Assembly (NCBI GenBank): GCA_034717495.1
Contig: JAYELL010000044.1
Span: 1 to 41,531 of the forward strand
Reading direction: 5' to 3'
Origin: Chloroflexota bacterium
GTDB taxonomy: Bacteria; Chloroflexota; Anaerolineae; JAAEKA01
DNA length: 41,531 bases
Under the pieces are notes generated by a model. The model had not been told where the DNA came from. It was given only the letters and a program-made list of their open reading frames with translations, and did no database searches. How positions within the stretch are numbered: position 1 is the first letter of the stretch; every line of letters starts with the position of its first letter. This document shows, piece by piece, positions 14,155-17,271 of the stretch. Both the position numbers and the translations under genes were made by a program.

Positions 14155-14182
14155 TTGCCAGCCTCCTGTCCTATGTTATAAT
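14155..14182 (+). promoter_or_regulatory. Promoter placed for a leaderless response-regulator mRNA
   Basis: TTGCCA (14155-14160) and the extended -10 TGTTATAAT (14174-14182) are separated by the usual 16 nt between hexamers. The start codon at 14190 is only 8 nt from the last T of the -10, so transcription should begin at or next to the A of the ATG. No ribosome binding site is visible. Confidence 0.7.
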
Positions 14183-14189
14183 CTGCGAC

Positions 14190-14873
14190 ATGGCTGAACG
14201 CATCTTGGTGGTCGAGGATGACCCGCGAATGGCGGATCTGCTTCGCCGGGGTCTGATCTTCGAAGGGTATCAGGTTGAAATGGCCGAGGATGGTGAGTCC
14301 GGGCTGATCGCAGCGCGGGACAAACTTCCTGATCTCGTGATTCTCGACCTGATGCTGCCCGGCGATCTGGATGGTCTGGAAGTCTGCCGCCGGTTGCGGT
14401 CCGCCGGCGATGTACCCATTCTCATGCTGACCGCCAAGGGTGCCCTCAGTGACAAAGTCACTGGACTCGACAGCGGTGCTGACGATTACCTGGTCAAGGC
14501 CGACTTTCAGTTCGAGGAGCTTCTTGCTCGGGTCCGCGCCCTGTTGAGACGTCGACAAGCGCCCCCTTCCCAGGAAGTGCTGCGTTTCGCCGATCTTGCC
14601 CTTCACCCGGCCAGCCGGGAATCCCTGCGCGGCGAACGCCGTCTAAACCTGACTGCCAAGGAGTTCGATGTCCTGGAAGTCTTTATGCGTCATCCAAGAC
14701 AGGTGCTTACCCGGGATATTCTGTACGACCGCATCTGGGATTACGACTTTGGCGGTGAAAGCAATATCATCGAAGTCTACATGCGTTACTTGCGCACCAA
14801 ACTGGAGGCGGACGGTGAACCTCGCCTTCTCCATACCGTCCGCAGTGTGGGCTACGTTTTGAGAGAACCCTAA
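14190..14873 (+). CDS. OmpR/PhoB-family response regulator
   Basis: A 227-residue two-domain transcription factor. The receiver domain (1-118) has acidic D10/D11, phosphoacceptor Asp53 in VILDLMLP, Thr81 and Lys104. The C-terminal winged helix (about 128-225) has [16 protein letters not shown] and [14 protein letters not shown], the OmpR DNA-recognition region. Two departures from the usual receiver are visible: one extra residue after the LP (GDLDGLE), and KA in place of the usual KP after the conserved lysine. The ATG at 14190 lies 8 nt from a strong -10, so the mRNA is probably leaderless. The cognate kinase follows 105 nt downstream. Confidence 0.95.
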
Positions 14874-14978
14874 GCTCGCCACTTTTCACACTGCTCTTAT
14901 CAACGAATAAGCTGTGTTTAATGTTCTTGGTGCACAGTATGTTTGTACATGTTGCACCCAACTGCTAGCCAGGCCTCC

Positions 14979-16361
14979 ATGACACTGCGTGTTCGCCTGA
15001 CCCTCTGGTTTACTCTGTTACTGGCCCTGGTTCTGCTGGCCTTCGCATTTCTGTACCACACGGTTCTTTCGCGTACCTTGTTCAACCACGTGGATACAGC
15101 GTTGCGAAGCCAGGCAGAGCAGGTCGTCTCTATCTTTGAGGCAGACTTCGATCCAACCAAGGCCCAGATTCCCACTGCCATCGTTTTGGCGCCTCAGTTC
15201 TTTGCTCAGGCAGCTACTCCCGATGGTCGAATCATCGATACCTCCGATAATTTGATGGATCAGACTTTGCCTCTCCCTGTCCATTTGCTGGAGCTCAATA
15301 TCCAGGGAGAGGCTGAGTTTTTTACCTGGCAAGATGAAGCAAGTCATCTCAGAATCTATAGCGCCCCGGTGCAGACCCCCGGAGGTCAGGTGGTCGCGAC
15401 GGTCCAGGTCGGACAATCTCTCGAGCCGATCGAGGATATGTTGCAGTTAGCGCGTCTCGGCCTGTTGATTGCAGGGGTCATTGCATTGATCCTGGCAGCG
15501 GCCGGCGGTTATCTCATTTCCGAGGCAGCTCTGCGGCCGTTGAATGAAATCGCGGAGACAGCCAGCCAGATTGCTCGCACCCGGGATCTCGAGCAGCGTC
15601 TTGAGGTTACACAACCGGATGACGAGGTGGGGCGCCTGGCCGAGGCCTTCAACGCGATGCTGGAGCGCCTGCAACGTCTCTTCCGCACACAGGAACGACT
15701 GGTCGCCGACGTTTCCCATGAGCTGCGGACACCTCTGGCGACCATTCGCGGCAATCTCGATCTTCTCCGGCGCGGCGCGGCGCAGGACCCCGAAATGTTG
15801 CAGGAGGGACTGGATGCGATCGGCTCGGAGACGGCCCGGATGAGCCGATTGATTCGCGATCTGCTGCTGCTGGCTGAAGCAGATGCGGGGGTAGGGCTGG
15901 ATCTCAAGCCGGTGGAACTGGATACGTTGCTGTTGGAGGTGTATCGGGAGGCGTTGCTGATTGCTCATGGACGGGTCAAGGTCCGCCTGGGCCATGAGGA
16001 TCAGGCCATGGTAGATGGGGACGCCGATCGTCTTAAGCAGCTCTTTCTCAACTTGATGAGCAACGCAATCAAGTACACGCCTGACGGTGGCTTGGTAACC
16101 CTCAGTCTGCACTGCCGGCCCGACGGCTGGGTTCGGGTGGTCATCAGTGATACCGGAATCGGAATCGCCGAGGAGGATCTGTCGAACATCTTCGATCGAT
16201 TCTGGCGAGTCGACAGGGCGCGCAACCGCAGTGCCGGCGGCACGGGGCTGGGATTGAGCATTGCGCGCTGGATCGCGGAAGCGCACGGCGGGCAACTGAC
16301 GGTGAAAAGCCAACTTGGCAAAGGTTCGACGTTTGAGGTCATGTTACCTCGCTCCGATTGA
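14979..16361 (+). CDS. Membrane sensor histidine kinase (partner of the OmpR regulator)
   Basis: About 460 residues. TM1 is near the N-terminus (LWFTLLLALVLLAFAFL). An extracytoplasmic sensor region of ~120 residues follows, then TM2 (LGLLIAGVIALILAAAGGY) and a HAMP domain. HisKA has VADVSHELRTPL with phospho-acceptor His247. The ATPase domain has the N box LFLNLMSNAIKYTPDGG, the G1 box DTGIGI, the F box IFDRFWRVD and the G2 box GGTGLGLSI. All catalytic motifs are intact. The ATG at 14979 puts TM1 at the usual distance; in-frame TTG 14943 or ATG 14949 would add 10-12 residues, and no start has a clear ribosome site. The signal sensed is unknown. Confidence 0.93.
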   Translation: MTLRVRLTLWFTLLLALVLLAFAFLYHTVLSRTLFNHVDTALRSQAEQVVSIFEADFDPTKAQIPTAIVLAPQFFAQAATPDGRIIDTSDNLMDQTLPLPVHLLELNIQGEAEFFTWQDEASHLRIYSAPVQTPGGQVVATVQVGQSLEPIEDMLQLARLGLLIAGVIALILAAAGGYLISEAALRPLNEIAETASQIARTRDLEQRLEVTQPDDEVGRLAEAFNAMLERLQRLFRTQERLVADVSHELRTPLATIRGNLDLLRRGAAQDPEMLQEGLDAIGSETARMSRLIRDLLLLAEADAGVGLDLKPVELDTLLLEVYREALLIAHGRVKVRLGHEDQAMVDGDADRLKQLFLNLMSNAIKYTPDGGLVTLSLHCRPDGWVRVVISDTGIGIAEEDLSNIFDRFWRVDRARNRSAGGTGLGLSIARWIAEAHGGQLTVKSQLGKGSTFEVMLPRSD

Positions 16362-16395: not shown

Positions 16396-16424
16396 TTGAC
16401 AGTCGTAGTGGACTGGGCTATAAT
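16396..16424 (+). promoter_or_regulatory. Perfect-consensus sigma70-type promoter
   Basis: TTGACA (16396-16401), exactly 17 nt, TATAAT (16419-16424): both hexamers and the spacing are ideal. It is the strongest promoter seen in the window. It drives the candidate small RNA/leader at 16431 and, by readthrough, rpsU-infA. Confidence 0.85.
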
Positions 16425-16430
16425 TGTCAA

Positions 16431-16577
16431 CAAGTAGCCAAGCGGCCGCTGAAAGCCTGACAGCCACCGTGTGTCATAGAGGAGAGAAACGACTCTAGAC
16501 GAGCTTTTCTAGCGAAAACCGGTCATGATTGCAGGAACAGTCGGCCTCACTTGCACTGGCAGTGAGGCTCTTTTTTG
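16431..16577 (+). ncRNA. Candidate small RNA or attenuated 5' leader of rpsU-infA
   Basis: Transcription from the ideal promoter should start near 16431 and stop at the intrinsic terminator ending about 16576, giving a ~147-nt RNA with no ribosome site or convincing ORF. Local stems are visible. TGACA (16458-16462) pairs with TGTCA (16472-16476). Immediately after it TAGAG (16477-16481) can pair with CTCTA (16493-16497). An alternative pairing of CTAGA (16495-16499) with TCTAG (16508-16512) uses three of the same bases, so these two are mutually exclusive. I could not match it to 6S RNA, SRP RNA, tmRNA or a named riboswitch. It may be an independent small RNA or a regulated leader. Confidence 0.55.
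16544..16576 (+). terminator. Intrinsic terminator upstream of rpsU
   Basis: GCCTCACT (16544-16551) pairs perfectly with AGTGAGGC (16561-16568) around a 9-nt loop. It is followed by TC and six Ts. It lies 80 nt before the rpsU start codon, where it would end the leader RNA or attenuate the operon. Confidence 0.85.
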
Positions 16578-16655
16578 CGATTGAAATGTGTTTGGCAAGG
16601 ATTTCAGGTCAGCATAGTCGTCGGGCATAAACAAACGAAGGAGGCACAATCAGAG

Positions 16656-16859: not shown

Positions 16860-16903
16860 CCGTTATTCAAAAAAGTCTGCGTCCGGAAAGGAGGTGATGG
16901 CGA

Positions 16904-17149
16904 GTGGCAGCAAATTCTAAAGAAGAAAAACTTGTTTTGGAAGGTAAAGTTATCGAAGCTTTGCCCAACACAACGTTCCGCGTGGAGTTGGAAAATGGGC
17001 ACAAGGTCCTGGCCTATTTGTCTGGCAAGATGCGAAAGCACTACATCCGGGTTCTTCTCGGTGACAATGTGCGCGTTGAACTTTCGCCATACGACCTCAC
17101 TCGAGGACGCATTGTTTATCGACATCGAACTCCGCGTGTCCGGGTCTGA
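16904..17149 (+). CDS. infA: Translation initiation factor IF-1
   Basis: An 81-residue OB-fold protein that occupies the ribosomal A site during initiation. The core is clear: [38 protein letters not shown], then [15 protein letters not shown]. The C-terminus has about eight extra residues (HRTPRVRV) beyond the usual end. The start is GTG at 16904, preceded by AAAGGAGGTGA (16887-16897), a near-full complement of the 16S tail. An ATG at 16897 is out of frame and closes quickly. infA usually sits in the spc/alpha ribosomal cluster; here it stands alone behind rpsU. Confidence 0.95.
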
Positions 17150-17217: not shown

Positions 17218-17241
17218 ACTCATTTGCGACCGTTTATTTCG

Positions 17242-17271
17242 AAGGCACTCCCAACCAGGGGTGCCTTCTTT
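17242..17271. terminator. Terminator between infA and the Nif3-like gene
   Basis: AAGGCACTCC (17242-17251) pairs with GGGGTGCCTT (17258-17267), a 10-bp stem with one G-U and a 6-nt loop, followed by CTTTC. It lies between convergent genes. The U-tract is short. Confidence 0.65.

Follow-up and report, generated by a model that had tools for sequence, protein, structure and literature searches.

The window examined here, the whole 41,531-nt stretch of DNA, corresponds to contig C44 in a draft genome of 5.0 Mb whose nearest named relatives belong to the Chloroflexota, class Anaerolineae. Within it, a response regulator gene and a histidine kinase gene are followed on the same strand by rpsU and infA, after which comes a convergent NIF3 gene. 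Matches to PF01165 and PF01176 confirmed that the two genes downstream of the leader encode ribosomal protein bS21 and initiation factor IF-1, as originally predicted. The small protein bS21 joins the 30S subunit late, can be exchanged, and participates in Shine-Dalgarno (SD) pairing. Further upstream in this neighbourhood, a second good promoter-like site, TTGCCA-16-TATAAT with an extended -10 (14155–14182), stops 7 nt short of the start of the response regulator gene, which possibly gives a leaderless or near-leaderless mRNA. The features of the locus are collected in Table 1.

Table 1. Observed and predicted features around the rpsU-infA leader (positions in the window)
Feature	Position	Strand	Basis or remark
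Response regulator gene	14190–14873	same as rpsU	upstream of rpsU
Histidine kinase gene	14943–16361	same as rpsU	upstream of rpsU; ends 35 nt before the -35 element
Sigma-70-type promoter of rpsU-infA, TTGACA-17-TATAAT	16396–16424	+	sequence; kept in relatives
Predicted leader transcript	16431–16577	+	start inferred 7 nt past the -10; end placed at the T-tract
GGCCGCUG, candidate competitor pairing with CAGUCGGCC (16538–16546, overlapping the terminator foot)	16444–16451	+	duplex test
GCCUGACAGC, candidate antiterminator strand against the 3' arm 16559–16568 (8/10 pairs)	16455–16464	+	counterpart of CCCRCUGCAU in genus g3
AGAGGAG, SD-like purine stretch without a suitably spaced start codon	16478–16484	+	-9.2 kcal/mol against the canonical 16S tail
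Terminator-like hairpin GCCUCACU/AGUGAGGC with U-tract UCUUUUUUG	16544–16577	+	fold; class-wide position just upstream of rpsU
AAGGAGG, SD of rpsU	16638–16644	+	canonical 16S tail pairing
rpsU, ribosomal protein bS21, 67 aa	16656–16859	+	PF01165
infA, initiation factor IF-1, 81 aa, GTG start	16904–17149	+	PF01176
GAAGGCACUCC/GGGGUGCCUUC hairpin, probable rpsU-infA operon terminator	17241–17269	+	hairpin fold

The promoter of rpsU-infA matches the consensus at 12 of 12 positions, with TTGACA at 16396–16401, a 17-nt spacer, and TATAAT at 16419–16424, and it is the sole 12/12 site between 14000 and 19000. Across the 5.0-Mb genome, this 29-mer pattern was counted 35 times and its reversed control not once; TTGACA-17-TATAAT is therefore a genuine type of promoter rather than an accidental string. 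Both hexamers are kept in the same-family relatives (TTGACA 4/4, TATAAT 4/4). The hairpin that follows is built from the arms GCCTCACT (16544–16551) and AGTGAGGC (16561–16568), with a 9-nt loop closing the uninterrupted stem, a few further pairs inside, and TCTTTTTTG running on to 16577. Together with its U-tract, which includes six consecutive U, the hairpin (16544–16568) folds at -16.3 kcal/mol, a value equalled by 0 of 200 shuffles. It ends, with the predicted transcript, 79–87 nt ahead of rpsU-infA. The perfect consensus promoter, the clean hairpin with a U-tract, its distance of 120 nt from the -10, and the resulting RNA length of about 147 nt thus all stand as originally proposed.

To place these elements in context, we compared the window with the genomes of its order (six, of which five carry rpsU), with two families in detail, and with a non-redundant set of 110 Anaerolineae rpsU upstream regions. 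The family of the window comprises the window itself and L006–L009, which fall into three genera, one of them (g3) made up of L006–L008; the second family comprises ten genomes (L010, L011, L013–L020). A promoter, a leader, and a terminator-like hairpin adjoin rpsU in 5/5 members of the first family and 10/10 of the second. Leader length ranges from 120 to 275 nt across the relatives; nonetheless, the hairpin lies 52–87 nt before the rpsU start, and in the second family, which spans that entire range of leader lengths, it lies 54–64 nt before it. In L006–L009, the leader sequence has diverged, while the promoter was retained, as was a hairpin of the form GCCUCAC...GUGRGGC followed by a U-rich tail. 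Both families share the stem sequence GCCUCAC/GUGAGGC. Pairing of the stem holds in 100% of alignment cells, with compensatory variation at its eighth pair (U-A, C-G, G-C). In most relatives other than the window, the U-tract is broken by a G.

In 28 of the 110 upstream regions, a hairpin with a T-tract lies within approximately 110 nt of rpsU; the corresponding counts are 3 for the reverse strand and 1.5 for shuffles. In other families, the hairpins ahead of rpsU have unrelated stem sequences and keep T-rich tails. The kinase gene is co-directional with rpsU and stops shortly before the -35 element, a context shared by L006–L008, so the hairpin might simply terminate the two-component operon upstream (ending at 16361), with the promoter placed before it by chance. 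This explanation is largely refuted and we consider it very improbable, because L009 keeps the hairpin behind a divergent upstream gene (a MoxR-type ATPase on the minus strand). Moreover, upstream genes vary in the second family while the distance from hairpin to rpsU is fixed, and the promoter precedes the hairpin in all cases. These counts, the fixed position, and the arrangement in L009 indicate that the hairpin belongs to rpsU, before which both it and the promoter hold a conserved position.

We also considered whether the transcript could be an independent RNA. Searches with Rfam covariance models, which include the known r-leaders and riboswitches, gave no match at or above the gathering score at the leader, and at E ≤ 10 the window yielded only a chance miRNA match. 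6S RNA (RF00013) was rejected at this site even at E ≤ 10, and the 6S RNA of the genome was located elsewhere (C40:44334–44529, 71.6 bits). A stand-alone small RNA of approximately 147 nt that has a promoter and a terminator of its own, with rpsU served by read-through or by another promoter, would agree with the strong promoter and strong U-tract of the window, and termination would indeed release an RNA of that size. However, the sequence between promoter and hairpin is unconserved between genera, unlike that of a trans-acting RNA; the unit is found only ahead of rpsU and is single copy in the genome; and a scan of the interval from the hairpin to rpsU detected no second promoter of at least 9/12. 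Such an RNA is improbable here. Of the two outcomes originally envisaged, the free abundant small RNA is thus unsupported, while attenuation of the translation genes is supported by the unit staying with rpsU, both in all readable relatives of the family and in a second family, as the upstream gene changes.

The locus presents the arrangement expected of an attenuator, namely a promoter, a leader, and an intrinsic terminator before the gene, conserved in relatives. We therefore regard a 5' leader of rpsU-infA carrying a transcription attenuator as the best reading of the sequence and a reasonably probable one, and the stop signal in the leader is probably conditional. Among the observations that count against attenuation are the G-interrupted U-tracts of most relatives and L015, which lost most of the leader and retained the hairpin, an odd outcome for a pure attenuator. 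Both would suit a hairpin that serves as a structural element of the mRNA, for example, as a site at which bS21 or some other protein lands or as a processing or stability element, and that acts on translation or decay. That two families conserve GCCUCAC/GUGAGGC would be unusual in a simple terminator and points in the same direction, as does the tendency of the leader 5' end in the second family to base-pair with the segment separating the hairpin from the SD. On the other hand, the copy in the window has its run of six U, and the hairpins at this position in other families have unrelated stems yet T-rich tails. On balance, a structural role appears unlikely.

In the attenuation model, RNA polymerase would start near 16431, and formation of the hairpin at 16544–16568 would stop transcription at about 16577 and release the RNA of approximately 147 nt. 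Alternatively, upstream strands of the leader would capture the arms or the foot of the hairpin, permitting read-through into rpsU and infA. With z = -1.5 for folding of the whole leader, a modest gain over shuffles, and -0.5 for 16431–16543 alone, the leader shows no unusual overall structure. The switch originally suggested consists of two small hairpins, TAGAG/CTCTA (16477–16481 and 16493–16497) and CTAGA/TCTAG (16495–16499 and 16508–16512), that share 16495–16497. We rejected this pair (16477–16512), as 57 of 200 shuffles folded equally well, a stability expected by chance, and neither hairpin occurs in relatives. The comparison of rpsU upstream regions proposed with it accordingly gave a divided answer, in which the terminator stem is conserved with compensatory changes and the two small hairpins are absent.

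Pairing of an upstream strand with a terminator arm appears to be the better candidate for a switch. In the sister genus g3, the motif CCCRCUGCAU, 59–72 nt from the start, can pair over 10 bp with the 3' arm of the terminator (in L006–L008, as few as 3, 19, and 29 of 1000 shuffles did as well), GAGGC pairs with the 5' arm, and the antiterminator is the minimum-energy fold; a competing antiterminator is thus supported in g3 by comparison. The counterpart strand in the window, GCCUGACAGC, pairs weakly on its own (209/1000 shuffles as good), and the terminator fold lies 0.5 kcal/mol ahead of the best terminator-free fold, a gap that 19 of 150 shuffled leaders equal and that is therefore not significant. 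A duplex between the first 60 nt of the window leader and the terminator foot, involving GGCCGCUG and CAGUCGGCC, surpassed 994 of 1000 shuffles (6/1000 as good). In L009, the corresponding position holds a perfect helix of eight bases (0/1000 shuffles). Of these pairings, the one with the terminator foot reaches significance in the window and L009 alone, and the one with the 3' arm is strong only in g3. Since several alternative pairings were tested, isolated p-values at the level of a few per cent deserve little weight. Given this number of tests and the variation of the helices from genus to genus, an antiterminator in the window is likely but unproved. One antiterminator common to the whole family was rejected, as the competing helices differ among the three genera and covariation supports none of them.

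For the second family, folding revealed no antiterminator, with the terminator ahead by 4.5–8.5 kcal/mol. RNAalifold gave an alignment energy better than all column shuffles (0/100), mostly owed to the terminator hairpin, and few compensatory pairs lie outside it. In L163 and L164, the rpsU leaders are approximately 245 nt long and share a conserved GGAGGGRGCCAUCGC block as well as a GCCUGYGUGCCUGUCUG stretch within the terminator loop region.

We next turn to translation signals. A leader peptide in the window was rejected: the only ATG, which opens 18 codons at about 16526, lacks an SD and is unconserved. Eight of the ten leaders in the second family (L010, L011, L013, L014, L016–L019) carry, approximately 40 nt from the predicted start, a conserved SD and a two-codon ORF, AGGAGCG-N3-AUG/GUG-GCC/GUC-UGA (GUG once), which is similar to how rpsU itself begins (AUG-GCN). 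In L020, the ORF from the same start is longer, and the tenth leader lacks that part. In a third family, L169 and L170 have leaders of 287 and 297 nt that have diverged, yet both keep a start-stop pair behind an SD-like sequence (GGAGA...GACGCC-AUG-UAG). Overall, one- or two-codon AUG ORFs led by an SD were present in 9 of 56 leaders versus 0.5 expected, with seven of the nine from one family. The family of the window has no such mini-ORF, only the SD-like purine stretch.

Against the canonical 16S tail, and for the handful of genes compared, SD energies were -12.5 kcal/mol for rpsU in the window, -21.3 kcal/mol for infA, and -19.6 to -19.8 kcal/mol for four rpsU copies of the second family. 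The infA SD, AAAGGAGGUGAU (16882–16903), has approximately 12 bases complementary to that tail and is stronger than the rpsU SD. In a separate group (L045, L047–L051, L056), AUCACCU...AGGUGA occurs just upstream of rpsU; AUCACCU, which is like the 16S rRNA 3' tail, could pair with the rpsU SD there and mask it, and this suggests translational rather than transcriptional control in that group.

Among known systems, the L10(L12)4 leader of Bacillus subtilis rplJL is an r-protein leader that acts by transcription attenuation (PMC4538822). The rpsU leader is alike in belonging to an r-protein operon, in having a similar size with a terminator before the first gene, and in the competing antiterminator, here seen in genus g3; it differs in its protein, in the lack of a recognised rRNA mimic, and in the lack of an Rfam match. 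In Flavobacterium johnsoniae, bS21 autoregulation is translational, mediated by ribosomes lacking bS21 through an extended SD, with no attenuator (PMC9976891). That case resembles ours in that rpsU would be the controlled gene and strong SD sites may be involved, whereas the window has an attenuator-like leader and an infA SD stronger than the rpsU SD. The element is of the same kind as the 20 r-leader candidates of Eckert and Weinberg (PMC7247131), a text in which a search found no mention of S21, Chloroflexi, or Anaerolineae. Our literature search found no bS21 leader described in Chloroflexota, and detailed rpsU control in Flavobacteria only. Most likely, the RNA is the 5' part of the rpsU-infA message. 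It represents a plausible new means of controlling S21, of a general kind already known, rather than a separate known RNA.

Termination in this organism would then be conditional, and its signal may be translation feedback, either by bS21 itself or by 30S subunits short of bS21. This is a natural guess because of other r-protein leaders (PMC4538822) and Flavobacterium rpsU (PMC9976891). Subunits short of bS21 should favour strong SD sites. One long-shot extension is that, in Anaerolineae, the leaders of rpsU gauge how many initiation-competent 30S subunits are available, with the loading of a decoy site, set by bS21 content, deciding whether the terminator forms. The decoy would be SD-AUG-GCC-UGA in one family, SD-AUG-UAG in another, and the SD-like purine stretch in the family of the window. 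If true, such an attenuator would read initiation itself and not elongation over a leader peptide. More broadly, a terminator that holds a fixed place ahead of rpsU in many Anaerolineae families would provide this group with a joint control point for bS21 and IF-1, and the rpsU leaders of this class would offer comparison sets with differing upstream parts.
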